Shown: piece by piece, positions 17,395 to 32,411 of the stretch | Position numbering within the stretch: the stretch's first letter is position 1 | Layout of the letters: each line of letters starts with the position of its first letter | Source: Alphaproteobacteria bacterium | GTDB lineage: Bacteria > Pseudomonadota > Alphaproteobacteria > Sphingomonadales > Kordiimonadaceae | Length of the DNA stretch: 39,386 nt | NCBI GenBank assembly: GCA_021774695.1 | Contig: JAJFIU010000026.1 | Location: 1 to 39,386 of the forward strand | Reading direction: 5' to 3' | Program-made: the position numbers and the translations under genes | The notes under the pieces: model-generated | The model's database searches: none | What the model was told of the DNA's origin: nothing | Seen by the model: only the letters and a program-made list of their open reading frames with translations

Positions 17395-18618
17395 TTACAC
17401 AATTCGCTTTTCGTAAACGCGGTAAGTTTTATAAACGACACATCCAATTTCCTCGAGGATCGAGCGCATGCCATCATTATCCTCGAGGATCCAACCCAAT
17501 TCGCCCCAGTAAGCGCCGCGTTTTTCCACATGCTGGCGGCTGACATCGATCATCCACATCGACATGGCGGCCCCCAGAGGCCCACGTTGGAACTTTTTGC
17601 GCACACCCATTAAGGGCACCCGGCACCGGTTTTCCTTGCCGTTTAGCATGCGGTAAGCCAGCTTAAAAATGCCGAACGGAAACAGTTTGCCGTCCAAATC
17701 GCTGATTTTATGGTTCACATCGGGGATAGTTAACATGAATGCCACCGGCTCGCCGTCATACTCGCAGATATAGGTGCGGTAGGGTTTAACTACCGGTTTC
17801 AAGCTTTTGGCGCCGTGGGCGACCTCTTTATCGGTGAAGGGCACATAGCCCCAGTTGTCGCTCCAGGCTTCATTGTAAATGTCCAGTACTACAGCAACTT
17901 CTTCATCAAATCGTTTCATGTCTATGGGGCGCATGGTAACGCGCTTGTTCTTTTGGGCCATTTTAACGATGCGCATGGCCCGGTCCGGCATTGGGATGGT
18001 CAGGTCCAGCGAATAGGCAAACATATCACGGGCTTTTTCCAATCCGTGGTTGTTCAGCCAGCCATCGTAAGATGGGCGCCCATGCGGCATCATCACGCAA
18101 GGCGGCGTGTCGAAGCCGTCTACCAACGTGCCGACTTCTTCGGCAGACGATAGCGACCACGGGCCTTGCATGCGCGTCATGCCGCGAGCTTTTAACCAAT
18201 CTTCCGCCGTTTTTAAAAGGATCTCGGCCGTTTCCTGATCCAGAGCTTCAAAAAAACCGAAGTGTCCCAGGTTTGGACCCCATTTTTCCTGTGCCAAATG
18301 ATCAATTTGTGCACTGATACGGCCAATCTGCTGTCCATCCCGTTCTGCTATCCACATGGATACATCGGCGTGGTCAAAATAGGGGTTTTTGTCTGCTCTC
18401 AACGCATCCATTCGCTCCATCATCAACGGCTGGACCCAATGAGGGTCGTCTGCATAGACAGTGCGGGTCACATTGACAAAGTCCTTCAGGCCCTTGTTAT
18501 CAACAATCTCACGGATTTGGGTGCTGGTGGCTGGTGAAGCAGAAGATGACGGCACAGGAGCGTTCCCACTATTGTTCTTGTATAGCGTCTTGGATAACTT
18601 ACTGGCGTAATTTTGCAA
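17395..18618 (-). CDS. bcerS: Bacterial ceramide synthase (bCerS-like, GNAT fold)
   Basis: A 407-residue soluble protein that I recognise as the GNAT-type family including Caulobacter bCerS, which N-acylates the sphingoid base to give (dihydro)ceramide, unrelated to eukaryotic ceramide synthases. Visible features: a polar low-complexity N-terminus (about 1-33), an N-terminal GNAT-like half (WIAERDGQQIGRISAQIDHLA, MQGPWSLSSAEEVGTLVDGFDTPP), and a C-terminal GNAT half (YNEAWSDNWGYVPFTDKE, CEYDGEPVAFMLTIPDVN, GELGWILEDNDGMRSILEEIG) ending KTYRVYEKRI. No signal peptide or membrane segment is seen. It is the last gene of the lptF-lptG-flippase-desaturase operon, and the spt operon lies within 10 kb, which strongly supports the role. 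A generic acyltransferase is the fallback. Confidence 0.85.
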   Translation of the reverse strand: MQNYASKLSKTLYKNNSGNAPVPSSSASPATSTQIREIVDNKGLKDFVNVTRTVYADDPHWVQPLMMERMDALRADKNPYFDHADVSMWIAERDGQQIGRISAQIDHLAQEKWGPNLGHFGFFEALDQETAEILLKTAEDWLKARGMTRMQGPWSLSSAEEVGTLVDGFDTPPCVMMPHGRPSYDGWLNNHGLEKARDMFAYSLDLTIPMPDRAMRIVKMAQKNKRVTMRPIDMKRFDEEVAVVLDIYNEAWSDNWGYVPFTDKEVAHGAKSLKPVVKPYRTYICEYDGEPVAFMLTIPDVNHKISDLDGKLFPFGIFKLAYRMLNGKENRCRVPLMGVRKKFQRGPLGAAMSMWMIDVSRQHVEKRGAYWGELGWILEDNDGMRSILEEIGCVVYKTYRVYEKRIV

Positions 18619-18678
18619 GCTCGATCCAGAGAAGGGAGCAAGAACCGACTATGGAATGTTTTGGAGTATTGCCGGATG

Positions 18679-19785
18679 CTAGGTTTTTTGAGCCGCCCGT
18701 GCTTCTCGCCATAACTGCGTAACTGCTGACAACAGGCTCCTGCGTGTCGCAGCCAGAAACAAACGATTATCAGGCAGGTCGGTCTTGAGGCGAAAATAAG
18801 CTTTTTCCAGCGAGTGGTAGGGCATGCCAGGAAACAAATGATGTGTGGCATGAAAGCGAAGACCAACCGGAGCCCAGAGGCTTGAAATATAGCGGTTTCC
18901 CGGGATATCCACGCTATCGAGAAACTCTTCTTGCCGGTTCATTCGCTCCCTGCCTGCGTTCCTGTATGCGTGCGCTGCCAGCGTGCGCAGCCCGTTCAGC
19001 ACGAAAACTGAAAATGTCACCAGATACCAAACAACAAAAAAGACCAGTGGTAAAATATCCATATAAAACAGCGCGAAGGCACTGTATGCGTATAGTCCGG
19101 TTAAGATGTCTTCTACCAACCAACCGCTGGCCTGATCTTTCTTTGGATGTGGCCGGATGTAGGCGAAATCAATAACAAGGCTGCTGGCGCGCTGCCATAT
19201 GTAGTGTCTAAATTTGGCGCTGACGAGCGTGAGCGGCATCAAAACGGCGTAGCGGGCCACAAGAAGCAGGGGCACGATGAATGCCTGCGCGACAAAAGCA
19301 ATGATCTTCCAGGGTTTATCAACGGCAAACGGCAGATACTCACCGTCTTCAGCCGTGCCGTAATGTTGGGGCTTGTGGTGATCAATATGTACGTCAGCGT
19401 AGGTATAGGCTGGAACCATTAACGGCATGCCGCATGCCGCATTCCAGAAACGACGAAATCCAGTGAAAGTACCTTTACGAAAATGGGCTAATTCGTGAAT
19501 GAAAATCACCGCACGGTATAGCGCCAACATAGCCACAAGAAGTGCTGCAATCTGGATGAACGAGGCAACAGGTGATAAAACAGCAACCGCTACCGCCGCC
19601 CAGCCGATAAGAGTGCTCAAACTGAAGTCAATCCAGTAGATGCGCGCGTTTGGTGTCCAAAGGTCCTTCACCAATCGGCGGGCCTCTTTCAAGGGAAAAT
19701 CAGCTGCTTCAGGGTGCGCGCCTGACACGGCTCGAGTTTGCCTGTTTGCCTCAAGCTGATTGTTTTCTACCGCTGCATCAATCAT
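18679..19785 (-). CDS. Membrane fatty-acid desaturase/hydroxylase
   Basis: A 368-residue integral membrane di-iron enzyme of the fatty-acid desaturase family. All three histidine boxes are present: HELAH at 97-101, HIDHH at 133-137 (with His141 nearby), and HATHH at 312-316 (with His324 nearby). Hydrophobic segments sit at about 55-95 and 160-270. The family includes acyl-lipid desaturases, sphingolipid desaturases/hydroxylases and carotenoid ketolases. The position between the flippase and ceramide synthase genes, with 60-base gaps on each side, suggests that it modifies the sphingoid base or the N-acyl chain. Whether it inserts a double bond or a hydroxyl, and at which carbon, cannot be read from sequence. 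Confidence 0.88.
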   Translation of the reverse strand: MIDAAVENNQLEANRQTRAVSGAHPEAADFPLKEARRLVKDLWTPNARIYWIDFSLSTLIGWAAVAVAVLSPVASFIQIAALLVAMLALYRAVIFIHELAHFRKGTFTGFRRFWNAACGMPLMVPAYTYADVHIDHHKPQHYGTAEDGEYLPFAVDKPWKIIAFVAQAFIVPLLLVARYAVLMPLTLVSAKFRHYIWQRASSLVIDFAYIRPHPKKDQASGWLVEDILTGLYAYSAFALFYMDILPLVFFVVWYLVTFSVFVLNGLRTLAAHAYRNAGRERMNRQEEFLDSVDIPGNRYISSLWAPVGLRFHATHHLFPGMPYHSLEKAYFRLKTDLPDNRLFLAATRRSLLSAVTQLWREARAAQKT

Positions 19786-19845
19786 TTCAGTTTCGCCTCA
19801 ACGACATAAGTTCCCTGCCGTTTCAATGTTAGTGACAGTCGCCTG

Positions 19846-21402
19846 CTACTTCGTCACACGACTGAGCCAGCGGCCCGGTTTGCCGAGCGCAGCTGCGTCT
19901 TCCGCTTTTAGACCATATCGCACCAGAGCAAGCAGCGCCACAATAAGCCCAAATATGGCGGTTATAAGACCTGTTGGCGCGGGAAAGCGTGGCCCAATCT
20001 CCGCCAGTGAAACAAGCACTGTCGCAGAAATAAGAGAAACAAATGCAGGTTTCAAGGTCTCGCTGGTGTAAGGCCATAGTTTGAAGATCAAGGCAGTTTG
20101 CGCGAATGCCAGGTAAGCGGTGATGTTCAGTCCTATGGCGGCAGCAATGGCCGCGCCAGTAACACCGTGTACGGGAATAAGCATCCAACCGAGATAAATG
20201 AATACCGTCAGGCCAATCAATCCGTTGACCGGCGGTAGCAGTCGGTGGCCAAGCATTTCGACAATTGATTGCGACGGCCCGCTTGCAGCCTCCAACACGC
20301 GCCCAGCGACTAGAATGGCAATGGCTGCCGCAGCAGCCTGAAAACCGGGCTCAAGCGCGCTTAAGATGTCGGCCCGGGCAAGATAAAGCGCTGCACCAAA
20401 GGGAAGGGCGAGACACAGGGACATTCTTGTTGCGAAGGAATACATATGCTGAAGGCGATGTTTGTCGCCTTTGCCGTCTTTTTCCGCCGCCAGTGGCGCC
20501 ATGACATATTCAAATGCCAGACGCACAACCTGCAATGCACTCGCTAGTTTTCGCGCGATAGCATAATAGCCACCAGCCGCGGCGCCTGCTGCTCCAGGCA
20601 GCATAAAGTTGAGCAGCATTACTGGAAATTCACTGAACAGTTTTTTAATCAGGTTGGACGGCATGACTGTAAAGCCGTATTTGGCCATATCCTTGGCAAT
20701 TCTTCCGGTGAATTTTGCCCGCAATACGTCAGACATATCATAGTGCAACGCAACCAGCCTTAGCGCCAAAATTGCTGCGAGAACAACGCTCAATAGATGA
20801 GCGAGAAAAAGACCGTATGTATTTAATCCAAAATAGAAAAATGCGACTGCAGCCACCAATCTAAGACCTTGTTCGTAAAAAATACGAACCCGAATTTCCG
20901 GGCCAAACTTCCGGCGAGCGCGTATCGCTGCAGTGCCAACTTCAACGATTGTCCAAAAGGGCAGCACCCATACGTATATGCGGATAACATTGGTCAGATG
21001 AACCTGGTCTTCTGCGCCCACATTGATGAATTGTGATATGGCTGGAGCATAATAAGTGCCAAGACCGGCAAATGCGCAGGCGAGTAAAAAGCTGAGTTTG
21101 AGGGCAAATCCTGCGACCGATGCTTCGTCTTTTTTCGCAACGCGCGGTACAAACCGCTGCAGTGCAGTGGTCATAGCGGCGTCGGACAAGGCAGTGGAAA
21201 CCTTCACATAACTCCATAAAACAGCGAATAGGCCGAAAGTCTCAGCGCCGTAGGCCCATGTGAAAACAACAACTGAAAGTGCTTCGATTAGCGCGCCCAA
21301 CCGTCCGACAAACGCAAGGCTGGCACCACCAGCAACCTGACGCAGATCATCTGCAGTTTCTTCACTTGACGGTGGAGTAGGTTCAGATGAGTTCTTGGTC
21401 AT
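19846..21402 (-). CDS. MATE/MVF-type lipid or polysaccharide flippase
   Basis: A 518-residue polytopic protein with about 14 hydrophobic segments, of the Wzx/polysaccharide-synthesis branch of the MOP (MATE, MurJ, Wzx) flippase superfamily. The N-terminal 20 residues are polar and acidic (SSEPTPPSSEETADD), followed by LRQVAGGASLAFVGRLGALIEAL, the usual start of the first helix pair. Family members flip lipid-linked sugars across the inner membrane. Its start codon overlaps the lptG stop by four bases (ATGA), so the two are translationally coupled. No glycosyltransferase is near, so an undecaprenyl-linked glycan is not an obvious substrate; a sphingolipid is inferred from operon context. The family is certain only at the superfamily level. 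Confidence 0.85.
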   Translation of the reverse strand: MTKNSSEPTPPSSEETADDLRQVAGGASLAFVGRLGALIEALSVVVFTWAYGAETFGLFAVLWSYVKVSTALSDAAMTTALQRFVPRVAKKDEASVAGFALKLSFLLACAFAGLGTYYAPAISQFINVGAEDQVHLTNVIRIYVWVLPFWTIVEVGTAAIRARRKFGPEIRVRIFYEQGLRLVAAVAFFYFGLNTYGLFLAHLLSVVLAAILALRLVALHYDMSDVLRAKFTGRIAKDMAKYGFTVMPSNLIKKLFSEFPVMLLNFMLPGAAGAAAGGYYAIARKLASALQVVRLAFEYVMAPLAAEKDGKGDKHRLQHMYSFATRMSLCLALPFGAALYLARADILSALEPGFQAAAAAIAILVAGRVLEAASGPSQSIVEMLGHRLLPPVNGLIGLTVFIYLGWMLIPVHGVTGAAIAAAIGLNITAYLAFAQTALIFKLWPYTSETLKPAFVSLISATVLVSLAEIGPRFPAPTGLITAIFGLIVALLALVRYGLKAEDAAALGKPGRWLSRVTK

Positions 21403-22589
21403 TTAGGTTTAGGTGTAGCTGGAGGAGAGGCTGGCCTTTTTCGCAACCGGTTGGTCGTACGCAATTGAGGTTTACCTTCCTCTGTGTAGAAAATGACTGT
21501 GTAGCCCACCAATAAAAACAGGAAAAACGGCGCCCAGGCGGCCAAAAATGGTGGAGCAACACCAAATTCGCCCATTGCGAGCATGAAATTATCGGCAACA
21601 AAAAAACTGAAGCCTAGCGCCATGCCGAATACGAGTCGGATGATCAAACTGCCGCCCCGCGAGACGCCAAATGCTGCCACTGCTGCAAGTAAGGGCATAA
21701 GCAACGTTGAAGCTGGTGCTGCAATTTTTTGCAGAAAACTGGCCATCAATCGGTCGGTCGACAGGCCTTCCGCTTCAAGGCGTTGCATTGATTGCCAAAG
21801 CTCGCCGAAAGACACCTGATCGGCCTTCACGTTGAGGGCAAGAAATCTTTCAGGGCTGGTTGGTATTAACCACCGGACTGAAGGCGTGACAGACAGCAGG
21901 TGGGAATTTGCGTCAAACCGCCGAACTTCGTGCAGGGTCCACTCACCGTTCTGATGCCAGGCAAAATCTGCTTTAACCATCGCTTGCACACGGCCGAGCT
22001 CATCGCGTTCGAAGATGGAAACACGGTCTAAGATAACTCTGTTTCTCACGGTGCTGACAGATTCGACCAAAACAATGCTGTCGCCTTCACGCACCCACGT
22101 CCGCCCGGCCAAATTAGTGTTTGTCGGCAAGTCAACGGCATAACCGTTGGCTTCCCAATATTGCAGGTCTCGGTTTGCGTCGTTTACGATGGTTTCGTTG
22201 AAAATGAAATGGGCGACGCCTATCAACAATGAGGCGATACCGAGGGGTAACAAGATGCGGTGGGCCGACAGCCCGCTTGCCTTCATTACCGTGACTTCAC
22301 TGCTTTGGTTAAGGGTTGCCAGTGTCAGCAAAGTAGCTAATAGGGCAGTGAACGGCGCAAATTGGCTTATCAGCTGCGGTGCGCGCATGCTCACGTAAGA
22401 CACGATAGACACCCAGGTTGCGCCGTCTGCAGCCATGATATTGTCTGCAGTTGCCAACAGGTCGAGCATTTGCAGGACGACGGTGAGCCCAATGAGAATG
22501 CCGAAAAACCTGCTCAGGTGCATGCGCACCATATAGCGCGCTAGGGTTCTCGAGGGGATTAGAGCGCGACGCAGAGAGCGAAATATCAT
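21399..22589 (-). CDS. lptG: LptG-like permease of an Lpt lipid exporter
   Basis: A 396-residue inner-membrane protein of the YjgP/YjgQ family. Three hydrophobic segments in the N-terminal part (about 27-130), a periplasmic domain of beta-rich character (about 140-270, RTWVREGDSIVLVES, WTLHEVRRFD) and three C-terminal segments match LptG. In known systems LptF and LptG with the ATPase LptB2 extract LPS from the inner membrane and pass it to LptC. The C-terminus carries a basic, proline-rich cytoplasmic tail (RKRPASPPATPKPK). It overlaps lptF by four bases and the flippase gene by four. The usual neighbours (lptD, surA, pdxA) are absent and ceramide genes take their place, which raises the question of its cargo. 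Confidence 0.9.
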   Translation of the reverse strand: MIFRSLRRALIPSRTLARYMVRMHLSRFFGILIGLTVVLQMLDLLATADNIMAADGATWVSIVSYVSMRAPQLISQFAPFTALLATLLTLATLNQSSEVTVMKASGLSAHRILLPLGIASLLIGVAHFIFNETIVNDANRDLQYWEANGYAVDLPTNTNLAGRTWVREGDSIVLVESVSTVRNRVILDRVSIFERDELGRVQAMVKADFAWHQNGEWTLHEVRRFDANSHLLSVTPSVRWLIPTSPERFLALNVKADQVSFGELWQSMQRLEAEGLSTDRLMASFLQKIAAPASTLLMPLLAAVAAFGVSRGGSLIIRLVFGMALGFSFFVADNFMLAMGEFGVAPPFLAAWAPFFLFLLVGYTVIFYTEEGKPQLRTTNRLRKRPASPPATPKPK

Positions 22590-23797
22590 GTTTGCTCTCC
22601 TATGCCCATAATACGTTTGCCGAGCCGTTTGATTGGCCCGGAGACAGCGCTGACGGCGGCATCGATGTAGGCCAGCGGTTCGCCGCCGACCTTAAATGCG
22701 ACGATGCGAAATAGAAGGAAACTGATAAAGGCGAAAGCCAAAAATAGTGCCCAAATGGTAAAATAGGGCGATGAGCCGGTTTTCACGGCTGTTTCCATGG
22801 CTTCCATCAATTCATTGTATACGACAAGCAACGACAGACCGATAACGATGCCTGAACCGCGGCCAGTTCGTTTGTTGGTAATACCCATCGGTATCGCCAG
22901 GAATGGCAGGATAAAAAAGGAAAATGTATGCATTAGTCGCCAATGGAAATTTCCCCTGAAGGCTGCACGTTCATCCAGCGAATTCAGGGGGTTATCCATT
23001 TCCGTGAAGAGCTCCGGCAAGGTCAATTCGAGTTCTTGGCCGCCCCTATCACGGAAAACTTCTCTCGCCGGCAGTTTGATGGTCAAGTCCTGACGCTCAA
23101 AATTTAGAACTCGAGGTTTATTTTGGCTCTCATTAAGGTCAATCAAGACACCGTTAAAAAGCCGCAGCAAAATTGTCTGATCATCATCGGTTGCAAAAAA
23201 GCCGCCCCGCTCAGCGGTTACAGTAATGCTGCCGCCTGCGCTGCGTCGTTCCAGGAAAATACCGGCCAATTCGGCTCCCTGGTTACGGGATTCCTCAATC
23301 ATCAAGGTAATGTCATCGCCGATCTCTACGAATTCACCAACCCGGATGCTGGCGCCGAGTGCGCCACTTCTCAGATCAAAAACTAAACCACGGTAGGCAT
23401 ATTGGCTGTATGGCTGCACCCAGCCCACCAGAACTGTGTTCACCACAGCTAGAAAAGCCGCCAAAAACAGGAGTGGACGTACAAGTTGTGACAGGCTCGT
23501 GCCAGCCGACGTAATGGCGTCATACTCGCTCGACAGGGATATTTTACGGAATGCGACCAGCACACCAAGCAGCAAACCAACCGGCAATGCCAACCCCATA
23601 TAATGCGGCGTCAAGTTTGCAAGCATGCGGAACACAACTTCCACCGGACCGCCCTGATTGACTACAAAGTCAAATAACTTGAGCATGCGTTCCAAAATTA
23701 GCAGCAGTGCTGCGACACCCAGTGTAATAAACATGGGCGTCAGAACTTGCCGCAAAATATAGCGGTCGATGCTGGTAAATAAGGAACGACTAGACAT
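22586..23797 (-). CDS. lptF: LptF-like permease of an Lpt lipid exporter
   Basis: A 403-residue partner of the LptG-like protein, same fold: N-terminal start IDRYILRQVLTPMFITLGVAALLLILERMLK typical of LptF, three hydrophobic segments by about residue 125, a periplasmic beta domain (about 140-270), then three C-terminal segments, with the loop PLAIPMGI-like motif FFILPFLAIPMGITNKRTGRG. It is the first gene of the operon lptF-lptG-flippase-desaturase-ceramide synthase, all joined by overlaps or gaps of 60 bases. The gene diverges from the DUF2141 gene, with the shared control region at 23798-23981. Whether this is the only LptF in the genome, or a second copy for sphingolipids, cannot be seen here. 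Confidence 0.9.
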   Translation of the reverse strand: MSSRSLFTSIDRYILRQVLTPMFITLGVAALLLILERMLKLFDFVVNQGGPVEVVFRMLANLTPHYMGLALPVGLLLGVLVAFRKISLSSEYDAITSAGTSLSQLVRPLLFLAAFLAVVNTVLVGWVQPYSQYAYRGLVFDLRSGALGASIRVGEFVEIGDDITLMIEESRNQGAELAGIFLERRSAGGSITVTAERGGFFATDDDQTILLRLFNGVLIDLNESQNKPRVLNFERQDLTIKLPAREVFRDRGGQELELTLPELFTEMDNPLNSLDERAAFRGNFHWRLMHTFSFFILPFLAIPMGITNKRTGRGSGIVIGLSLLVVYNELMEAMETAVKTGSSPYFTIWALFLAFAFISFLLFRIVAFKVGGEPLAYIDAAVSAVSGPIKRLGKRIMGIGEQT

Positions 23798-23981
23798 AGA
23801 ATGGCGCTACACTGGTTAGAGAGATGTTTCAAGAGACATTTCTGTATCTTCCATCCTAAAATCATGGCAGAAAAAAGAGAGTGTTTCGTCTTATTGTATT
23901 TATTTGGGCCACAATTTTGCCACCATCCGGCGCTTATTTCTAATGTATCAAAGGGTTGCAAGGCTAGTGCCGGAGATTTTA

Positions 23982-24563
23982 ATGACTAAAACTGTGTCGT
24001 ATTTTACAGCGAAACAAAATAGCGCACTGCGATTTGCAACATCAATTACCGCGTTGCTTTTAGTGACCACTGGTTCATGGGCCGATGAAACACCGACCAA
24101 ATTGGTGAACCAAGCTACGGACATTGAAAGCCAATGTATGGTTGAGGCCGGACAAGCTGCGCTTGAGGTTACTGTTGATAATCTTCAAACAACTGAAGGC
24201 CAGATGCGCGCGCAAATATACAGCTCCAATCCTGATGATTTTCTAGCTAAAGGCAAAAAGTTAGTAAGGGTTGATGTGCCGGTTAAAACATTAGATGGAC
24301 CAGTAATTTGCGTTCCACTGCCCGCGCCTGGGACATACGCACTTGTTGTCATGCATGACAAAAATGCCAACGGCAAAGCAGATATTTTCTCAGAAGGTTT
24401 CGGCTTTTCAAATAATCCGAAGTTATCGATGGCGCCGCCGGACGGTGAAGAAGTGATGTTTGTTGCAGACGCTGGCGTCAGCAAGCACATTATCGAACTC
24501 ACGTATATTTTTGGTGGTGATGACAAGAAAAAGGAAAAACGTCGCAAGTTAAAACGACGCTGA
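23982..24563 (+). CDS. Exported DUF2141 protein
   Basis: A 193-residue secreted or periplasmic protein. The ATG at 23982 has GGAG six bases upstream and gives a signal peptide (hydrophobic core FATSITALLLVTTG, cleavage near SWA). An upstream ATG at 23904 would add 26 unlikely residues. The mature part matches DUF2141: LEVTVDNLQTTEGQMRAQIYSS, then PGTYALVVMHDKNANGKADIFSEGFGFSNNP, an Asn/Asp-rich turn that may bind calcium, closing in a beta strand (KHIIELTYIF). The C-terminus is strongly basic (KKKEKRRKLKRR). The family's function is unknown. Position next to a ceramide-kinase-like gene and opposite lptF suggests a part in sphingolipid handling outside the inner membrane; this is inference. 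Confidence 0.82.
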   Translation: MTKTVSYFTAKQNSALRFATSITALLLVTTGSWADETPTKLVNQATDIESQCMVEAGQAALEVTVDNLQTTEGQMRAQIYSSNPDDFLAKGKKLVRVDVPVKTLDGPVICVPLPAPGTYALVVMHDKNANGKADIFSEGFGFSNNPKLSMAPPDGEEVMFVADAGVSKHIIELTYIFGGDDKKKEKRRKLKRR

Positions 24564-24568
24564 GATTG

Positions 24569-24598
24569 AAAAAAAATTGGAATGCCGTTATGCATTCC
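24569..24598 (-). terminator. Minus-strand intrinsic terminator signal
   Basis: The inverted repeat GGAATGC / GCATTCC (24579-24585 and 24592-24598, six-base loop) has eight A on its 5' side. Read on the minus strand it is therefore a stem followed by AA and eight T. No minus-strand gene ends here, so it would only stop antisense transcription through the DUF2141 gene. Confidence 0.55.
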
Positions 24599-24618
24599 GT
24601 CAAATAGCCGACCAAAAT

Positions 24619-24643
24619 GGGGCCACACGGTCCCTTTTGTTTT
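24619..24643 (+). terminator. Intrinsic terminator after the DUF2141 gene
   Basis: Stem GGGGCC / GGTCCC (one G-U pair) with the four-base loop ACAC at 24619-24634, followed by TTTTGTTTT. Flanking ACCAAAA and TTTTGGT can extend the stem. It separates the DUF2141 gene from the lipid kinase gene, so the two may be transcribed separately. Confidence 0.7.
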
Positions 24644-24714
24644 GGTCAGATGGTTAAATTGACAAACTTTGGTTCACCGTTGGTTGTGGCCATAAAGGCA
24701 GAGTTAGCGCTTTC

Positions 24715-25716
24715 ATGCAGGTTCAAACACATACTATCAACAGCGGCGCAACGGTGCCGCTTGTGGTGATAATTTCCAATCCGTTGAGTTCGACAAATGC
24801 GAAAAACATGGATGGCATTCGTGCGATCGTGAATGCCAGTGCAAATGTTGTTCATTACGAAATGGACGGAATTGACTCGTTAGGCGATGCAATGGAGCTT
24901 TTTTCGCGCGCGAACCCGGCAATGCTAGTTATCAATGGTGGGGACGGCACTATTGGCGCGGCATTGGCGGCGCTTTTGTACAAAAATCCATTTAACGTTA
25001 TCCCGCCAATAGCATTTTTGCCTGGTGGAAAAACCAACATGACAGCAGCCGACTTGGGCTTTAAAGGTCGGCCAGTTAAGGTGTTGAAAAAATTGTTGAA
25101 ATTGGCCCAAGCAGGCGAAATTCCAAACCTGTTGACGCGCCGAAATTTGATTGAAATGGATATGGGTGATGGCGGTCAGCCCAAAGTAGGAACTTTTTTT
25201 GGTACAGCCGGCATTGTTCGCGGTATTTTCTGGTGCAGGGAAAACGCTTACGCAAAAGGCTTACCCAATTCCGTCGCACATGTTTGGTCGGCCTATAGGC
25301 TGGTCATATCGGCTTTGGGCCTGTCCAGAAACAAGGGTCTAATGGTCTCAAACCCCATGTCGATTACGGTTCCGGGCAGCGCCCGAATGAGCGGTCGCTA
25401 TTCAATTGTCATGTGTACCACGCTCGACAGATTACTGTTCGGTACCAAACCATATGGCAGAGAAGGTAAGGGCGGATTGCGGTTTTCGGCACTGGAGGCG
25501 GGCCCCGCCACTCTGATCCGGTCGTTTATAGGTTTGATTACCGGGCGTTTTGGCAATAGTTCGATTGAAGGGCTTCATGTGCGCAAAAGCGATGAAGTCA
25601 GAATTGATGGAACCGATCCGGTAACGCTGGACGGAGAAATTTATCAGCCATTGCCAGATAAACCTGTGGTGCTAAGAGGCAATCGCTCGTTAACCTTTAT
25701 AACCCTGAAAAAGTAG
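24715..25716 (+). CDS. cpgB: Lipid kinase of the diacylglycerol-kinase fold, probable ceramide kinase
   Basis: A 333-residue soluble lipid kinase. The DAGK_cat nucleotide motif is at 75-79 (INGGDGTIG), the second glycine loop at 103-110 reads PGGKTNMT where diacylglycerol kinases usually have PxGTxND, and the C-terminal catalytic loop has LDGE at 305-308. In Caulobacter a kinase of this type (CpgB) phosphorylates ceramide for ceramide phosphoglycerate synthesis. As I recall it lies just before spt with one gene between, and the same order is seen here. Ceramide 1-phosphate formation is therefore the leading call; diacylglycerol or sphingosine are the alternatives. The TAM41-like gene follows 13 bases later, so the two are almost certainly one operon. 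Confidence 0.82.
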   Translation: MQVQTHTINSGATVPLVVIISNPLSSTNAKNMDGIRAIVNASANVVHYEMDGIDSLGDAMELFSRANPAMLVINGGDGTIGAALAALLYKNPFNVIPPIAFLPGGKTNMTAADLGFKGRPVKVLKKLLKLAQAGEIPNLLTRRNLIEMDMGDGGQPKVGTFFGTAGIVRGIFWCRENAYAKGLPNSVAHVWSAYRLVISALGLSRNKGLMVSNPMSITVPGSARMSGRYSIVMCTTLDRLLFGTKPYGREGKGGLRFSALEAGPATLIRSFIGLITGRFGNSSIEGLHVRKSDEVRIDGTDPVTLDGEIYQPLPDKPVVLRGNRSLTFITLKK

Positions 25717-25729
25717 AACCAATAATTCG

Positions 25730-26704
25730 ATGAAGCGAAAATCAACCATTCAAGACGAGAACTCCGTCCCAACGACGCTTGTCGAATTTGTTCTTCAGGA
25801 ATGGAATAGGGACGTGCCTGATGCTGTTTCAACCGCAGCAGAGAGTATCGCTGCAGGATACGGCGATAGCGTGCAAGGCATTCTTTTTTACGGCTCTTGT
25901 TTGCGGACCGGCGAGATTGAAGACAAAATCCTCGATTTCTACGTCATTGTTGACAGTTATGCGGCCGCATATTCCAAGCGTTGGCTGGCGGTTGCTAATC
26001 AATTTATTCCGCCAAACGTGTTTTATCACGAGATGGATGTGGACGGCCTCACCGTACGGTCAAAATATGCGGTTATTTCGATAAAAGATTTTGGGTTTAG
26101 GGTAAATAAGGCATGTCTCAATGTTTCCATATGGGCGCGGTTTTGTCAGCCCAGCATGTTTCTGTTACCGAAAGATGATTGCGCTACAAACCGCGTTGCC
26201 CGTCATATCACGACATCAATTGAAACGATGCTAGGCAACCTGTTGGACCTTAAACCTTGGGCTGTTGCATCCCGGGATCTCTGGGTTGCAGCGTTTGAAG
26301 AGACATATGCTGCTGAACTTAGGTCTGAACGTGGTGGCAAGGGTCTGGAAATATACTTGCTTGATCAATCGCGTTACGATGATGTCACGCCGATCGCGCT
26401 GGCTGAGCTGGGCATAAACCCTGGTGATACCACTTCAACGGCACCCGTAACGCAGCCCTCTCGCACTGATAATTTTCAAGCTAAGCTGATGTGGTTCTAC
26501 AGGCGATTTAACGGGAAAATTGTCAGCTTTTTGCGATTAGTGAAGGCTTCGATGACATTTGATGGCGGGATTGACTATTTGGCTTGGAAAATTCGCCGCC
26601 ACTCTGGCGTTGAGGTTGAAATCAAATCGTGGATGCGAAAACACCCGATTGTCGCGGGTGTTGTTCTTTTCTGGAATTTGCGCCGCAAGGGTGCATTCCG
26701 GTAA
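25730..26704 (+). CDS. TAM41-like nucleotidyltransferase (CDP-lipid synthase candidate)
   Basis: A 324-residue soluble protein with a nucleotidyltransferase fold. The GS motif is at 55-56 (FYGSCLRTG), followed by the acidic strand DFYVIVD at 69-75. The second acid of the usual DxD is Tyr71, a pattern (DFxF/YxV) I know from mitochondrial TAM41, which makes CDP-diacylglycerol. Further agreement is PPNVFYHEMDVDGLTVRSKYAVISIKDF at about 94-121, matching TAM41's PN-(Y/F)F...KYGV(V/I)S run. The last 60 residues are basic with one hydrophobic stretch, suggesting membrane contact. Next to a ceramide kinase it could make CDP-ceramide, or activate the head group. In Caulobacter the gene in this place is one of the cpg genes, as I recall, but I do not assign a symbol. 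Confidence 0.72.
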   Translation: MKRKSTIQDENSVPTTLVEFVLQEWNRDVPDAVSTAAESIAAGYGDSVQGILFYGSCLRTGEIEDKILDFYVIVDSYAAAYSKRWLAVANQFIPPNVFYHEMDVDGLTVRSKYAVISIKDFGFRVNKACLNVSIWARFCQPSMFLLPKDDCATNRVARHITTSIETMLGNLLDLKPWAVASRDLWVAAFEETYAAELRSERGGKGLEIYLLDQSRYDDVTPIALAELGINPGDTTSTAPVTQPSRTDNFQAKLMWFYRRFNGKIVSFLRLVKASMTFDGGIDYLAWKIRRHSGVEVEIKSWMRKHPIVAGVVLFWNLRRKGAFR

Positions 26705-26712
26705 GGCGTTAT

Positions 26713-27909
26713 TTAGACTTTTAGTCCTACCTTTTCCGCAGTGCGCTTGAAACGCGCAATAATTTCGGCAACTTGCTGGCTGGTATGCTGGGCACAGACG
26801 CTGATGCGCAGTAAAAACATACCTGCTGGTGTTGCTGGCGGCGCCGCCATATTGGTATAAACGCCCTCCATCAGCAGCTGTTCCCAAAATTTTGTGCCAA
26901 TCATTACGTCAGGCAAATGCACAGCAATAATGGGGCTTTCAGCCGTTTCGGTGCACATGGCAAAGCCAGCCTGTTTCAATCCGCTATGCAACTGGCGGGC
27001 ATTTTCCCACAAGTGGGCGCGGCGGTTACCGCTGCGACTTATGGCTTTTATTGAAGCCGTTGCAGAGGCGACGACACTTGGGGGCAGGCTAGCGGTAAAT
27101 ATGTAGGGACGGCTTACAAACCGCAGCACGTCGAATTTCGGATGGTTTGATACTGCAAAACCGCCCATCGTTCCAACGGATTTGGAGAATGTGCCGACGA
27201 TAAAATCTGCCAGATGTTCAACGCCTAACTCTTCAGCGATGCCGCGTCCGTTTTCACCGCAAAACCCCATGGAGTGGGCTTCGTCGACAAGCGTCATACA
27301 ACCATATTGCTTAGCAACTTCAAGAAGTTCTTTCAGCGGAGCAGCATCGCCGAGCATAGAATACATGCCTTCAACCACAACAAGCTTCCCGGCATCGGCG
27401 GGAAGGCGCTTGAGACGGCGTTCCATTTGAGCCACATTATTATGCTTGAAGCGGACAATTGTCGCGTTGCCCATCGCGCAGCCATCATAAATAGATGCAT
27501 GGCAGTCGGCGTCAATAATTACGAAGTCGTCTTTGCCACCAAGCGCGGAAATCATGCCCAAATTGGCTTGGTAGCCGGTAGAAAAAACCATACATTCATT
27601 CATGTCGTAAAAATCAGCGATGGTTGCTTCCAATGCTTTGTGACCACCGTAAGTGCCGTTCAAGACGCGTGACCCAGTTGTACCGGTTCCAAAATCATCC
27701 AGCGCTTTTTTCGCAGCTTCGATCGCCTCTTCGTTGAACGTCATACCCATATAATTATTGGTGCCCGCAAGAATGGTACGTCGGCCGCCAATGATGGCTT
27801 CTGTTTCAGAAATGACTTCTTCAATTACGACCTTGAAAGGGTCGGCTTTTTCGAATGGAAGCGATGCCCGTAAATCAGTTATATTATCAAATTTATCTAG
27901 TAAATCCAA
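26713..27909 (-). CDS. spt: Serine palmitoyltransferase
   Basis: PLP enzyme of the alpha-oxoamine synthase family that condenses serine with an acyl thioester to give 3-ketosphinganine. All key residues are visible in the 398 residues: Lys243 (TFSKSVGTMGG) for the PLP Schiff base, Asp209 and His212 (LVDEAHSMG), His137 (DADCHAS) that stacks on PLP, and the GTG-rich loop at 74-80. Soluble, homodimeric bacterial SPT is the expected form; there is no membrane anchor. The gene is 4 bases downstream of a dedicated acyl carrier protein, so the acyl donor is likely acyl-ACP. KBL or AONS (glycine C-acetyltransferase, BioF) are family alternatives, but the surrounding ceramide genes argue for SPT. Confidence 0.92.
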   Translation of the reverse strand: MDLLDKFDNITDLRASLPFEKADPFKVVIEEVISETEAIIGGRRTILAGTNNYMGMTFNEEAIEAAKKALDDFGTGTTGSRVLNGTYGGHKALEATIADFYDMNECMVFSTGYQANLGMISALGGKDDFVIIDADCHASIYDGCAMGNATIVRFKHNNVAQMERRLKRLPADAGKLVVVEGMYSMLGDAAPLKELLEVAKQYGCMTLVDEAHSMGFCGENGRGIAEELGVEHLADFIVGTFSKSVGTMGGFAVSNHPKFDVLRFVSRPYIFTASLPPSVVASATASIKAISRSGNRRAHLWENARQLHSGLKQAGFAMCTETAESPIIAVHLPDVMIGTKFWEQLLMEGVYTNMAAPPATPAGMFLLRISVCAQHTSQQVAEIIARFKRTAEKVGLKV

Positions 27910-27913
27910 TTAT

Positions 27914-28159
27914 TTAGCCTTTTGCAACGATTGTGTCTACTGCATCTGCAACCTGCTCAATGGTTTCCAGATCAGGCAACATATTAAGCGGTAGGATAAT
28001 ATCGAAATCATCTTCAATGTCTGCAACCAGATCCATGACGGTCAGGCTGTCCAACTCCAGATTAGCCGCGAAGGTTGTCGCGGGTGTTAGATCGATGTTC
28101 TTTTTGTTCAAAGGGCCGATCAAGCCGTAGATTAATTCCAGTGTCGCTGTTTTAGCCAT
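27914..28159 (-). CDS. Acyl carrier protein dedicated to sphingolipid synthesis
   Basis: An 81-residue acidic carrier protein with the phosphopantetheine attachment Ser38 in LELDSLTVMD and the helix II-III pattern EDDFDIILPLN. It lies between the CerR-like gene and spt, 4 bases before the latter. The usual housekeeping ACP travels with fab genes and has the motif GADSLD, so this is a specialised paralogue that should carry the fatty acid loaded by the acyl-AMP ligase at 29200 and offer it to serine palmitoyltransferase. The same ACP-SPT pairing is known in Caulobacter and Sphingomonas. Confidence 0.92.
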   Translation of the reverse strand: MAKTATLELIYGLIGPLNKKNIDLTPATTFAANLELDSLTVMDLVADIEDDFDIILPLNMLPDLETIEQVADAVDTIVAKG

Positions 28160-28228
28160 TTTTTTTACCTACCTGACCAGCCCACTTGGGCGATTATATT
28201 TCTATTCGTTATATCGGTATGTGCCGGA

Positions 28229-29185
28229 TCATAAAAGGCCATTTTTTCGATACCATTCAATGGTGTCTTCTAATCCGGCTTTTAGGCCAAATTGCGGGGA
28301 CCACTCAGTATGCTTAAAGCGCCGTGGTTCTTTCACTGTCCAATCTGGGTGACACAAGTATTTTGCTGTCGATAATGTCAGCATGGCCGGACGGTTAAGG
28401 ATATTTGCGATCACACCATTAACCGCACCTATGCCGCCAAGCACGGGAAACGGTACTGGAATAGTGCGAATATTTTTTTTGCCGGTATCGGGCAGGGCGT
28501 TTACTACGTCTTTAACTGTATAACCGCCATTTTTTCCGTCATCAATTTCAACAATAGCCTGTCCGTTGCTTTTGTCGCACAGTGCGACCAATGCGTGTGC
28601 CATATCAACGGCGTGGATCATTGAAAATCGATTTCCTGTGCCGCCAGGCGCGGGAAGCAGGCCGTAACGAGTTGCTTTAAGGAGTTTTAAAATCTCCTTG
28701 TCACCCGGGCCGTATATTGCGGGCGGGCGCACGATGGTCCAGCTGAAAGCCCACTTTCGTGCTGTGAGAAGTAATTCAGTGCCGGCTTTGCTGGCTCCGT
28801 AATGTGATAATTTGGGCTCTCGGGCTGAGAGACTGGAAACATGTACAACATGGCTGATGCCAGCTTCTTGGGCGGCGTTAAACAGGTGCTTGCTGCCGCC
28901 GACATTAACATCAAAAAAAATATCTCGGTTCAGCGCTTTGGTGAGCCCGGCTAAATGTAGCAGTATTGTGCAGCCACCCATGAGTTGTTTCAGGCTCTCG
29001 GCATCGTCAAGGGCACCTTCAACCCACTCTACGTTGGTCATTTCTGCTTGGGGACGGCGCGTAAGAGCTTTGACTTTATAGCCTTTTTCAACCAGCGCAT
29101 GAAGAGTGTGCCCGCCAAGAAATCCGGTTGCCCCGGTCAAGGCAATCGTTTGACCGGTATTAGTTTTGTTTGTTTTTTTTGGCAT
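28229..29185 (-). CDS. cerR: NAD(P)-dependent reductase, CerR-like (3-ketosphinganine reductase)
   Basis: A 318-residue extended short-chain dehydrogenase. The Rossmann motif GxxGxxG is at 18-24 (LTGATGFLGG), and the catalytic triad is Ser118 (HVSSLS), Tyr129 and Lys133 (YGASK). The sequence is of the epimerase/NDUFA9-like class. In Caulobacter the gene in this position, cerR, is required for the keto reduction in ceramide synthesis, and the gene order spt-acp-cerR-ligase is the same here. Direct reduction of the 3-keto group is the leading role. No membrane segment is obvious. Other sugar-nucleotide epimerase functions are possible for the family but fit the neighbours poorly. Confidence 0.86.
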   Translation of the reverse strand: MPKKTNKTNTGQTIALTGATGFLGGHTLHALVEKGYKVKALTRRPQAEMTNVEWVEGALDDAESLKQLMGGCTILLHLAGLTKALNRDIFFDVNVGGSKHLFNAAQEAGISHVVHVSSLSAREPKLSHYGASKAGTELLLTARKWAFSWTIVRPPAIYGPGDKEILKLLKATRYGLLPAPGGTGNRFSMIHAVDMAHALVALCDKSNGQAIVEIDDGKNGGYTVKDVVNALPDTGKKNIRTIPVPFPVLGGIGAVNGVIANILNRPAMLTLSTAKYLCHPDWTVKEPRRFKHTEWSPQFGLKAGLEDTIEWYRKNGLL

Positions 29186-29199
29186 GGTTCGCCCGGTGG

Positions 29200-30948
29200 C
29201 TAGCTGGCAATTGCTTGCAGATGGCCCGATAAATATTGGTTTCGTGCTTTTGTGCGGCTAAGTTTCCCAGAGGACGTGCGAGGCAACGACTTAGGCGGCA
29301 CGAGCTCGATCACACAATTTATACCGGTTTCCGACTGAATTTGCTTCTTGAGCGCATCAATTAACTGCATACGTTCGCCGTCGCCTGATATGCGGCATTG
29401 CGCCAGTATCATTGGGATTTCTTGGGCATTATCGCCGGGTACGGAAATCGCAGCAACATCGCCTTTTTTAAGACCTTCAACTTGTTCCGCCGCCCATTCG
29501 ATATCTTGAGGCCAGTGGTTTCGGCCATTAACGATAATCATGTCTTTGGCGCGCCCGACAATATAGATACAACGCTCTTTCATATATCCCATGTCGCCAG
29601 TGTCCAGCCAACCTTCAGGGCTTAAGACTTCGCGTGTGGTTTCGGGATCATTGAAATACTCGCGCATGACAGAAGTGCCGCGTAGGTAAACCCTGCCAAT
29701 CTGGCGGTCCGCCAAAGGTGTGTCACCTTCGTCGCGAATTTCAATTTCATACTCAGGCAGAAGTTTGCCGCAATTGACAACTTCGCGCATGCGCTTGTCA
29801 TCTGAACTTTGTACAAGAATTTGCTTGTCGCCCGTGAGTGCGGCCTCTTCAATCAAGTCAATTTCGATACCCTTGCCAACTTGGCCGAAACTTACGCCCA
29901 ACGTACACTCCGCTAGGCCGTAGCTTGGTAAAAATGCCTTATCGGAAAAGCCTATTTGCGCAAATGTATCGTGAAATTCCTGCATAACTTCCGGGCGGAT
30001 CATTTCCGCTCCGATGCCAGCAACCCGAACCGCGCTTAGGTCCAGTCCCTCCATTGCGCTGGCGCGCATGGCTGCACGGCGGGTGCAAATATCAAACCCA
30101 AATGTGGGGCTGTAGGTAATGGTGCCTTTGGTCGCGCTTAATACCCGAAGCCAACTCATGGGGCGCCTTGCGAATTCCTCGGTTGGAATAAAATCAACCG
30201 ATAACTGGCAGGTAATAGATGTAAGTAACGTGCCAACCAAACCCATGTCGTGGTAAAATGGAAGCCAAGAGACGCAGCGATCAGTATCTACCAGGCGCAC
30301 GCCGTGAAAACTCATGCCGTGGGTATTGGCCAGAAGCGAACGATGAGTAACTGATACACCGTGCGGAAAGCGAGTGCTGCCAGACGAATATTGCAAGTAA
30401 GCAAGGTCATCAGGCGTCGGCAATCTAGGCTCGCCTTCACCTTCAGCGTTTAAGTAAGCATCAATGTTACCGCAAAAAGTCAGTTCAAGTCCGGATGTGG
30501 CCTCGCCCACAATTTCATCCATGAAAGAAGGAGCCATAAGACCGTTAGCCTTGCAACTTTCCATTTGCATGCGAAGCTGCGAGACGTAGCCTTCTTTGCC
30601 GCCGAACGATGTGGGCAGGGGCAGGGGAACCGGCAGTACGCTTGCATACTGGCAGCCAACAAAAAAGCAGACGAAGTTTGCACTGGTTTCCGCGATCAAG
30701 GCAACACGATCACCTTTTTGAAAACCCATTCCTACGAGCTTGCTGCCAATAATCTCGGCGCGGTCTCGTATTTGTTTCCAGGTGATACTTTCGGTAACAT
30801 CGCCGCGGGCATTGAAAAAGTTAACGCCGCGTGCGCCTTTAGCCGCATATTCGATTGCGTCGACTAGGGTATCAAAGTCAGAATATCGGCGATCAAGTGA
30901 CGGATCTAGTGTTGGTGTCACCCCAATCTGTGCGTTTGAATCGACCAT
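29200..30948 (-). CDS. Fatty acyl-AMP ligase / acyl-ACP synthetase for sphingolipid synthesis
   Basis: Adenylating enzyme of about 582 residues in the FAAL subgroup. The P-loop-like motif reads SSGSTRFPHGV, the form typical of FAAL rather than acyl-CoA ligase (SGTTGxPKG). The hinge region is DTGDMGYM followed by GRAKDMIIVNGRNHWPQDIE, and the C-terminal catalytic Lys is in TSSGKLSRTK, about 20 residues before the end. It should activate a fatty acid with ATP and load the ACP at 27914. In Caulobacter the equivalent gene lies in the same place (from memory, named aasR or fadD-like). The ATG at 30948, five bases after GGGG, is preferred to the GTG at 30954. It is the first gene of the synthesis operon. 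Confidence 0.88.
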   Translation of the reverse strand: MVDSNAQIGVTPTLDPSLDRRYSDFDTLVDAIEYAAKGARGVNFFNARGDVTESITWKQIRDRAEIIGSKLVGMGFQKGDRVALIAETSANFVCFFVGCQYASVLPVPLPLPTSFGGKEGYVSQLRMQMESCKANGLMAPSFMDEIVGEATSGLELTFCGNIDAYLNAEGEGEPRLPTPDDLAYLQYSSGSTRFPHGVSVTHRSLLANTHGMSFHGVRLVDTDRCVSWLPFYHDMGLVGTLLTSITCQLSVDFIPTEEFARRPMSWLRVLSATKGTITYSPTFGFDICTRRAAMRASAMEGLDLSAVRVAGIGAEMIRPEVMQEFHDTFAQIGFSDKAFLPSYGLAECTLGVSFGQVGKGIEIDLIEEAALTGDKQILVQSSDDKRMREVVNCGKLLPEYEIEIRDEGDTPLADRQIGRVYLRGTSVMREYFNDPETTREVLSPEGWLDTGDMGYMKERCIYIVGRAKDMIIVNGRNHWPQDIEWAAEQVEGLKKGDVAAISVPGDNAQEIPMILAQCRISGDGERMQLIDALKKQIQSETGINCVIELVPPKSLPRTSSGKLSRTKARNQYLSGHLQAIAS

Positions 30949-31213
30949 TTTCACCCCAGGGCTGTTAACTAACTAGCCTAAAACAACACAGCAACAATGG
31001 TTTATATCACCATTGTCACAAAAAACTATACAAAAAACACGTTACTCTGGGCTAAATAATACTTGCATTTAACCCGTTTTCTACAGTTCATAACTGCTTG
31101 ATCGCCCATGCAATTATTACGGTTGGATTACAGTTTGTTTTTCCACTTCGCAAGATAATTTTGGCTACTTGCATGTGCGGTAATGGCAAATAGAGTAGGA
31201 ATACGGCTAAAAA
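30949..31213. other. Divergent control region of the sphingolipid operon and a PLP-enzyme gene
   Basis: 265 AT-rich bases between divergent genes, with no coding frame. The most distinct element is the inverted repeat at 30994-31016, listed separately. I could not place convincing -35/-10 boxes; AT-rich TATAAA- and TATAGT-like hexamers occur on the minus strand near the repeat, but none has a well-placed partner. Confidence 0.5.
30994..31016. promoter_or_regulatory. 8-7-8 perfect inverted repeat, candidate operator
   Basis: ACAATGGT, seven bases, then ACCATTGT, with all eight arm bases matching. It lies 46 bases upstream of the ligase start on the minus strand, within the likely promoter, and about 200 bases from the opposite gene. 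A 23-base dyad of this size suits a dimeric repressor or activator. No regulator gene is adjacent. The identity of the binding protein is unknown. Confidence 0.45.
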
Positions 31214-32410
31214 ATGACAGTAGAAGCTGCAGGCTTATCGCCGAAAACAGTAGTGGCTGTGCGAGATTTAACCCCCGGGGTGAAGGGGCGTATCCATTTG
31301 GATAACTGCGGTTCAGCACTGATGCCCAGCCCTGTGATTGCTGCAATGCAGAATGCGCTTCAGCGAGATGCGGCCTTCGGCGGCTATGTTGCTCAGGAGC
31401 AACAGGAAGGTAAATTGGAAGCGGGTTATTCGTCTCTAGCCCGTTTGTTGGGCGGCGATGTATCTGACTATGCGTTTGTCGGCAGTGCCGTGGACGGTTG
31501 GACCAAGGCCTTTTATAGCCTGCCACTTCAGGCAGGTGACAATATCGTCACCGCTTATAATGAATATTGCAGCAATTATATCGCCTTTCTCCAAGTGAAG
31601 AAGAATCGAGGCGTGGAAATTCGCGTTGCACGACAGGCACCGAGTGGCAGGATTGATCTGGCGCATCTGCAGTCGTTGATAGATAAACGCACAGCCCTGA
31701 TCAGTATCAGCCATATGCCGTCATCAAGCGGTGAGATCAATCAGGTTGAAAAAGTCGGGGAAATCGCCCGGTCTGCAGGCGTGCTCTATCAGTTGGATGC
31801 CTGCCAGTCGGTCGGACATGTGCCGGTTGACGTTGGCCGCATTGGTTGCGATATCCTGACGGGTACGTCCCGAAAGTTTTTGCGTGGGCCTCGGGGTATT
31901 GGCTTTTTGTACGTAAACGAGAAGGCGCGTTCTGTGATGGAACCGGTAGTTTTGACAAACCAATCGGCAGAATGGAGCAGTGCTGATGACTATTCTTTGC
32001 GCCAGGACGCCCGCGTTTTTGAAGCTTGGGAGCGCAGCGTTATTAATCAGTTGGGTTTCTCTGCAGCTATTGATTACCTGCTTGAGTTGGGCGTGGAAGC
32101 GGCAACCCAGCAGATAGCAAAGAATGCGACATATTTGCGAAAGCGATTGCCCGACCTGAAAAATGTCACCGTTGAATGTCCGCCTGGCGCTGTGTCGGCT
32201 ATTATAACGCTGAATATCGCAGGGCGATTGCCATCAGATGTTAAATCAATTCTGGAAGATCAACATATTGCAGTGAAAACGGCTAGCGTTGTTCATACCC
32301 GCCTGGATATGGAGCACCGTGGTATAGAATCCGCAGTGCGAGTATCGCCTCACTATTATACCAGCACCGAAGATATGGACACGCTTTTAACCGCCTTGGA
32401 AGCGTTGTAA
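31214..32410 (+). CDS. Class V PLP-dependent aminotransferase-like enzyme
   Basis: A 398-residue fold-type I PLP enzyme of the NifS/IscS/isopenicillin-epimerase superfamily. Lys221 (GTSRKFLRGPRGIG) binds PLP, Asp195 and Gln198 (YQLDACQSVGHV) contact the ring, and the N-terminal HLDNCGSALMP is the usual LDNAG substrate motif. I see no cysteine in the C-terminal loop where desulfurases carry the catalytic Cys; the nearest, in VECPPGA, sits in a beta strand region. It is therefore more likely an aminotransferase, epimerase or C-S lyase than a cysteine desulfurase. Ribosome-binding site is weak (AGGA 13 bases upstream). RecX starts two bases after it stops, so they are co-transcribed, without an obvious functional link. 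Confidence 0.85.
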   Translation: MTVEAAGLSPKTVVAVRDLTPGVKGRIHLDNCGSALMPSPVIAAMQNALQRDAAFGGYVAQEQQEGKLEAGYSSLARLLGGDVSDYAFVGSAVDGWTKAFYSLPLQAGDNIVTAYNEYCSNYIAFLQVKKNRGVEIRVARQAPSGRIDLAHLQSLIDKRTALISISHMPSSSGEINQVEKVGEIARSAGVLYQLDACQSVGHVPVDVGRIGCDILTGTSRKFLRGPRGIGFLYVNEKARSVMEPVVLTNQSAEWSSADDYSLRQDARVFEAWERSVINQLGFSAAIDYLLELGVEAATQQIAKNATYLRKRLPDLKNVTVECPPGAVSAIITLNIAGRLPSDVKSILEDQHIAVKTASVVHTRLDMEHRGIESAVRVSPHYYTSTEDMDTLLTALEAL

Positions 32411-32411
32411 A

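Follow-up and report, generated by a model that had tools for sequence, protein, structure and literature searches.

The closest described system to the genes considered here is the ceramide phosphoglycerate (CPG)/CPG2 locus of Caulobacter crescentus, CC_1168-CC_1152 (CCNA_01210-01226), which was compared through PMC11324152 and not by sequence. In Caulobacter, ceramide synthesis involves AasR, AcpR and serine palmitoyltransferase (SPT) (PMC9386255), and the order and compartments of the SPT, bCerS and CerR steps have been described (PMC11087976). CpgB makes ceramide-1-phosphate (PMC10331486), CpgC leads from there to CPG 'through a yet unidentified mechanism' (PMC12275187), and an activation like that of a cytidine diphosphate (CDP)-diacylglycerol synthase was suggested for CC_1161 (PMC11324152). 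Caulobacter lacking lipopolysaccharide (LPS) relies for its survival, at least in part, on anionic sphingolipid (PMC12275187, PMC10964400). The route of bacterial sphingolipids to the outer membrane is described as not known, with no flippase or transporter identified yet (PMC11324152, PMC11087976); transport by LptF2/LptG2 was proposed for Caulobacter in 2024 (PMC11324152). The window analyzed here, a stretch of 39,386 nucleotides from contig JAJFIU010000026.1 of a Kordiimonadaceae bacterium (assembly GCA_021774695.1), carries 12 open reading frames (ORFs) that form one sphingolipid block at 17395-30954 and include lptF and lptG. Probably this block serves both to make an anionic sphingolipid and to export it, in a bacterium that lacks LpxC and LpxB, with the Lpt machinery carrying the sphingolipid to the outer leaflet. 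Families were assigned using Pfam and NCBIfam profiles, and the features are the following.

17395-18618, minus strand: bCerS-type GNAT ceramide synthase (PF00583)
18679-19785, minus strand: membrane fatty-acid desaturase/hydroxylase (PF00487, E 1.6e-25)
19846-21402, minus strand: MATE/MOP-superfamily flippase (MatE matched by 15 of 18 family members)
21399-22589, minus strand: LptG, sphingolipid-linked type (TIGR04408 over cut-off; own tree branch)
22586-23797, minus strand: LptF, sphingolipid-linked type (TIGR04407 over cut-off; own tree branch)
23904-24563, plus strand: DUF2141 protein, probably secreted (PF09912, E 2.9e-22)
24715-25716, plus strand: DAGK-type lipid kinase with GGDG, candidate ceramide kinase (CpgB) (PF00781)
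25730-26704, plus strand: Tam41-fold nucleotidyltransferase, candidate CDP-ceramide synthase (CpgC) (fold of a predicted model)
26713-27909, minus strand: SPT (NF047599 over cut-off; PDB 2x8u, E 6.5e-162)
27914-28159, minus strand: AcpR-type acyl carrier protein (PF00550; DSL motif)
28229-29185, minus strand: CerR-like NAD(P)-binding reductase (PF01370)
29200-30954, minus strand: AasR-type fatty acyl-AMP ligase (NF006624 over cut-off)

The original prediction of an uninterrupted anionic-sphingolipid block at this place was borne out: the families of all 12 ORFs were confirmed, and their order is kept in most families of the taxonomic order. By family and position, the five ceramide genes aasR, acpR, spt, cerR and cerS are all in the locus. 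A Roseomonas sphingolipid-locus protein matched the bCerS family profile at E 5.9e-136, and PDB sequence searches with bCerS and with the flippase returned no matches. The nucleotidyltransferase has the Tam41 fold in its predicted structure model; the Tam41 profile PF09139 left the window protein unmatched, its one match among 24 family members being at E 0.021, below cut-off.

Conservation was assessed using SPT-centred regions from 57 relatives of the same order, and counts were made over the 49 genomes whose regions were not judged cut by contig ends; G009, G022, G029, G030, G036, G037, G056 and G058 were omitted for such cuts, and G040 for having no SPT. SPT was present in all 49, bCerS and the acyl carrier protein in 48 each, lptF and lptG in 47 each, the kinase in 44, CerR in 42, the ligase and the Tam41-like gene in 40 each, the flippase in 38, the DUF2141 gene in 37 and the desaturase in 12. 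Gene order was similar in most families of the order, which rules out an accidental assembly of the block. Within the bacterium's own family (26 genomes), every gene family except the desaturase was found in 26 of 26, counting the lptF and DUF2141 genes of G012 from other loci; the sphingolipid locus of G012 (L034) keeps lptG, with lptF and DUF2141 not seen in it, and the genome has further LptF/LptG copies of this type at other sites (L117, L118). Four genomes of family f5 have SPT apart and bCerS with lptFG in a second region, lptFG being no more than 2 kb from bCerS in all four. Across the 55 relatives with LptF/LptG, the pair or one member lay within 15 kb of an spt, cerS, kinase or Tam41-like gene in 54; this was seen for 49 relatives in the region counts, and G009, G022, G039, G040 and G058 were read separately. 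In the remaining relative, G030, LptF/G lies next to DUF2141 and a kinase fragment of low score, on a contig of 3.5 kb. The original prediction was to be given up if relatives did not have the transport genes together with spt, and it named the desaturase among the genes to compare. It withstood this test for the transport genes, so that the overall interpretation is supported in the transport role and not in the desaturase as a conserved member. That all locus genes act on one lipid, and which lipid this is, we infer.

A PF04116 fatty-acid hydroxylase adjoins bCerS in 16 of the 49 genomes and the desaturase does so in 12, the two never occurring together (0 of 49; hypergeometric chance 0.0038, uncorrected for kinship); six of the hydroxylases were assigned with Pfam itself, and the others were called using a profile built from those six. 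The desaturase, present in so few genomes and filling the slot of the hydroxylase elsewhere, is ruled out as a core member. Since the two are mutually exclusive beside bCerS, their distribution points to a lineage-specific substitution of one enzyme for the other and to a single shared job, oxidation of the lipid tail. The desaturase of the locus probably acts on ceramide tails; in Caulobacter, hydroxylation of the N-acyl chain is ascribed to CC_0202, an enzyme of the DesA family (PMC11324152).

Lipid A genes and Lpt parts were searched in 59 genomes, comprising the window's own genome (90.7% complete) and its relatives from the genus, family and order. In profile searches neither LpxC nor LpxB was found over cut-off in any of the 59 (LpxC gave one sub-threshold match), and the same searches were positive in the E. 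coli and Caulobacter controls. SPT was found in 58 genomes, LptF/LptG in 56 (exactly two matches in 43), LptD in 55 and LptC, with low scores, in 47. A genome-wide search showed the locus LptF/LptG to be the sole pair in their genome, in which the canonical parts LptF, LptG, LptC and LptD are all present; its single LptC match sits on another contig (C160), and the locus itself is without LptC2. Because lptFG is the only such pair and LpxC and LpxB are absent, sphingolipid export is its likeliest role. The sole pair and the absence of the two tested lipid A genes are points beyond the original prediction.

Trees of LptF and LptG were built with groups labelled before the trees were read; ORFs of 750 bases or less were excluded from the first trees and those of 250 residues or less from the enlarged ones. 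LPS-type references were taken from 15 of the 89 genomes with LpxC and without SPT, from among those listed, together with the pairs of G083, G084, G136, G116, G144 and E. coli. The first trees (84 LptF, 82 LptG) split sphingolipid-linked from LPS-type sequences without exception, with support of 0.982 for LptF and 0.906 for LptG, and the split was found again after extra copies and plasmids had been added (103 LptF, 91 LptG; support 0.993 and 0.981). With the first sets, an LptF profile built from the order scored 264-710 for the sphingolipid type and 73-133 for the LPS type; the corresponding LptG ranges, 146-658 and 75-149, touch.

A survey of 115 genomes drawn across the class Alphaproteobacteria found SPT in 14 and LpxC in 93, LpxC being missing in 22. 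It was missing in 10 of the 14 genomes with SPT and in 12 of the 101 without (Fisher p 5.6e-6, uncorrected for kinship). Eight of the ten genomes with SPT and no LpxC had LptF/G, and in seven of these the pair lay on the SPT contig, no more than 15 kb away; the eighth, G137, on a 5.8 kb contig, and G128, on a 4.2 kb contig, were too short to judge. The two without LptF/G were G123 and the incomplete G128. Among the four genomes with both SPT and LpxC, G083 and G084 each have an LPS-type pair plus a sphingolipid-type pair, and G152 has a sphingolipid-linked pair plus two further, unclassified LptF/G matches. Ten class genomes have a sphingolipid-type pair, and in nine of them kinase and Tam41-like genes were found as well (on two contigs in G084; the exception is G032, judged on its fetched region). 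The survey leans towards a phosphorylated, anionic cargo, family f5 being a misfit unless its kinase and Tam41-like genes lie elsewhere.

Several observations weigh against export of an anionic sphingolipid by this pair. The absence of lipid A is judged from two families only, LpxC and LpxB. Three relatives with SPT, G036 (95% complete), G047 (93%) and G056 (78%), gave zero LptF/G matches, and G047 has lost the pair from the slot between flippase and DUF2141 while its kinase and Tam41-like gene stay. In five of six f5 genomes (including G032) the fetched regions hold a sphingolipid-type pair but neither kinase nor Tam41-like gene, and those of four of five f8 genomes lack a Tam41-like gene; the pair is therefore not strictly tied to a phosphorylated head group, and the five f5 genomes rule out that the pair occurs only with kinase and Tam41-like genes. 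In G123, a one-contig genome with SPT, LpxC and LptF/G are both unmatched, and G136, with SPT and LpxC, has an LPS-type pair only; these two genomes, whose fetched SPT loci hold neither kinase, Tam41-like gene nor pair, rule out that every sphingolipid producer has this LptFG type. LptF/G is also kept by six of the 12 class genomes lacking both LpxC and SPT, and both cases inspected (G116, G144) are of the LPS type, so LptFG without LpxC is by itself no proof of a sphingolipid cargo. The LptFG of Pseudomonas plasmid pPNP1, beside sphingolipid genes, groups with the E. coli pair among the LPS-type sequences and is perhaps a separate recruitment. No head-group transferase was found. On the supporting side, E. 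coli LptG residues K40 and K41 are reported to touch LPS at its 4'-phosphate and inner core (PMC6744409); these positions are each basic in 19 of 21 LPS-type LptG and acidic in 47 and 45, respectively, of the 61 sphingolipid-type LptG, most of which come from one order, and at position 30 of LptF 58 of 63 sphingolipid-type proteins have a basic residue versus one of 21 of the LPS type. This charge switch is suggestive only, as a hint of a cargo other than LPS, because K40E/K41E left E. coli growth unaffected (PMC5548808) and because alphaproteobacterial LPS-type LptG is mostly acidic too at E. coli K34, R133 and R136.

Among the genomes named above, the sphingolipid loci of G036 (L138) and G047 (L139) are without lptFG, and LptD is still present elsewhere in both genomes. 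G123 (L088) has 5.4 Mb on one contig and contains bCerS as well as SPT.

The analysis shows the set of genes and its conserved order, the lack of LpxC and LpxB, one lptFG pair on a branch of its own, and the Tam41 fold of the predicted model; from these we infer the individual reactions, the head group and the Lpt cargo in this organism as follows. AasR would charge AcpR with a fatty acid, SPT would condense the AcpR-bound fatty acid with serine, bCerS would attach the second chain, CerR would reduce the keto group, and the desaturase/hydroxylase would modify the tail. The kinase would form ceramide-1-phosphate, which the Tam41-fold enzyme, using cytidine triphosphate, would convert to CDP-ceramide as the source of a phosphoglycerate-type (CPG-like) head group; the predicted fold supports CDP-ceramide as the missing intermediate. 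Crossing of the inner membrane would be aided by the flippase, after which LptF/LptG would extract the lipid, working with LptC and an assumed LptB from outside the locus, and hand it along the Lpt bridge to LptD. The sphingolipid would then fill the outer leaflet, the place of LPS in other bacteria. A Roseomonas query for the CDP-alcohol transferase CpgA, which CPG2 requires, gave zero matches at E 0.001 in the window's own genome, at its 90.7% completeness; strong matches (E 1e-71 or better) were found in nine of the 59 genomes and in none of the own genus, where the best was 3e-21 (G012). Since CpgA is unmatched, the organism is not filed as a CPG2 producer, and a CPG-like lipid is the best guess for the product.

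The DUF2141 protein has a signal-peptide-like N-terminus, read by eye, and its true start is perhaps 23982. A PDB profile search gave it no relatives; its structure model is weak (predicted local distance difference test, pLDDT, 64.8), the best fold matches being adhesin-like with E above 0.001, and no LptA or LptC was among the matches listed. Caulobacter CC_1157 and CC_1167 were regarded by the authors of PMC11324152 as probably unrelated. On a Roseomonas plasmid DUF2141 sits between the LptF and kinase genes. Solitary LptF paralogues lie near DUF2141 in four relatives, G011 (L132, 6325-9326), G012 (L118), G031 (L136) and G044 (L137), and GT4 glycosyltransferases adjoin them in all three loci classified (G011, G031, G044); for the solitary LptF of G001, G021 and G028 and the second one of G031, DUF2141 was absent from the fetched stretch. 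Judged by gene neighborhood, DUF2141 may be a periplasmic partner of LptF. The solitary LptF-type permeases, in relatives without LpxC, perhaps export a glycosylated lipid, which bears on the alternative that the LptFG cargo is another surface lipid, a glycosphingolipid or an unknown glycolipid, with the anionic sphingolipid reaching the outer membrane otherwise. Sphingomonas is known for glycosphingolipids (as listed among the references of PMC10964400), and the five f5 genomes whose fetched regions have lptFG and cerS without kinase and Tam41-like gene fit such a cargo as well. However, a family scan of its proteins found no glycosyltransferase in the window locus, and across the class the pair accompanies the kinase and Tam41-like gene in all but one case; we regard another cargo as unlikely, though of all the alternatives it survives best.

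The head-group genes could instead belong to phospholipid metabolism, the Tam41-fold enzyme making CDP-diacylglycerol or using a different phospholipid and the kinase phosphorylating diacylglycerol, in a cluster that mixes phospholipid and sphingolipid genes. Tam41 is a CDP-diacylglycerol synthase (title of PDB 6ig2), and the kinase matched, among solved structures, YegS-type lipid kinases only, and weakly. Such a mixture is nevertheless improbable: the Tam41-like gene adjoins the kinase, near SPT, in relatives, it lies no more than 16 kb from SPT on three plasmids (Roseomonas marmotae, Diaphorobacter and Pseudomonas JS425), and in Caulobacter CPG formation requires the counterparts CpgB and CpgC (PMC11324152, PMC12275187). 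That the pair is an ordinary LPS exporter in an accidental position, with lipid A made by unrecognized enzymes, is very improbable despite the NCBIfam names of both proteins (LPS export permeases, over cut-off) and the retention of LptD and LptC, given a complete lack of LpxC and LpxB matches over cut-off in the 59 genomes where most of the class has LpxC, the near-universal linkage to sphingolipid genes in relatives and the separate LptFG branch.

Export of the anionic sphingolipid through Lpt thus remains the preferred reading. More tentatively, and with slightly more doubt than confidence, it can be proposed that the whole alphaproteobacterial order swapped lipid A for an outer-leaflet sphingolipid, keeping the Lpt bridge and changing its cargo through a dedicated LptF/LptG lineage, with DUF2141 as periplasmic partner of the non-LPS LptF. 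If true, a state without lipid A, which Caulobacter reaches only as a mutant, would here be fixed naturally; the Lpt bridge would not be bound to LPS, and a Gram-negative outer membrane built on sphingolipid would be possible across a large clade.

As a further test of linkage, plasmid-borne copies were sought in 72,556 plasmid records. LptF was matched in 16, and 15 of these were among the 25 with SPT; 13 records are from Roseomonas, many with identical match values, and since the annotated LptF of pPNP1 escaped the query, the list is incomplete. In the LptF record without SPT, Acetobacter pSH1, the permease stands alone, near a glycosyltransferase. Sphingolipid loci with their own lptFG are present on pPNP1 (L141, Pseudomonas sp. 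JS425), p1318-4 (L124, Roseomonas marmotae) and the conjugative IncP plasmid pDCB2 of Diaphorobacter (L142). Against phage records the SPT query gave four matches (33-35% identity), of which two carry the annotation 2-amino-3-ketobutyrate CoA ligase and two carry none.

Outside the block, positions 16560-17372 (plus strand) encode a 270-residue protein with cysteine-rich repeats (W-x-C...C...VP-x-NAY) beside a RhlE-type helicase; it matched no Pfam or NCBIfam family over cut-off. Just past the block, 31214-33044 holds a class V aminotransferase (cysteine-desulfurase-like, under the NCBIfam cut-offs shown) followed by RecX.

Two plasmid loci and the Caulobacter locus allow the block to be placed among known systems. 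Sphingomonas parapaucimobilis plasmid NZ_CP155753 has an NAD(P)H-binding protein, acyl carrier protein, SPT, LptF, LptG, desaturase and N-acetyltransferase in one stretch, its LptF/LptG being annotated as LPS export permeases; it differs in that lipid kinase, Tam41-like gene, DUF2141 and flippase are unannotated in the stretch and the desaturase is on the opposite strand. Roseomonas marmotae p1318-4 shares ten of the 12 window families by profile, in similar order. It differs by adding a CDP-alcohol transferase, two nucleoside triphosphate-transferases, a metallophosphoesterase and a HIT gene, a Caulobacter-like CPG2 set, and by having the window's desaturase and flippase families unmatched. 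With the Caulobacter locus, as presented in PMC11324152, the block has in common AasR, AcpR, SPT, CerR, bCerS, a ceramide kinase, the CDP-diacylglycerol-synthase-like CC_1161, a flippase, LptF2 and LptG2, the correspondence to CpgB and CpgC being by position and family (DAGK_cat with GGDG; Tam41 fold), with no Caulobacter sequence compared. Unlike the Caulobacter locus, it is without LptC, phosphoesterase and a CpgD-like gene and has a desaturase, and its genome has no CpgA-like match. In the literature searched, which covered few subscription papers, neither an LPS-less Kordiimonas nor an Lpt-borne sphingolipid was found, and the transport proposal only in PMC11324152. The Caulobacter case is clouded by LPS and a second LptFG set, LptF2/LptG2 being second versions beside the LPS system, whereas here lptFG is the only pair of a genome without LpxC and LpxB, and the Lpt cargo could be tested without LPS in the way; culture collections have related strains, so that cultured Kordiimonas offers a direct test of the transport question. 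Both the type of locus and the idea of LptF2/LptG2 export are known from Caulobacter, and what is new is a cleaner case, in which the sphingolipid-linked LptFG is the only pair of a bacterium that, like its relatives, is without LpxC and LpxB.

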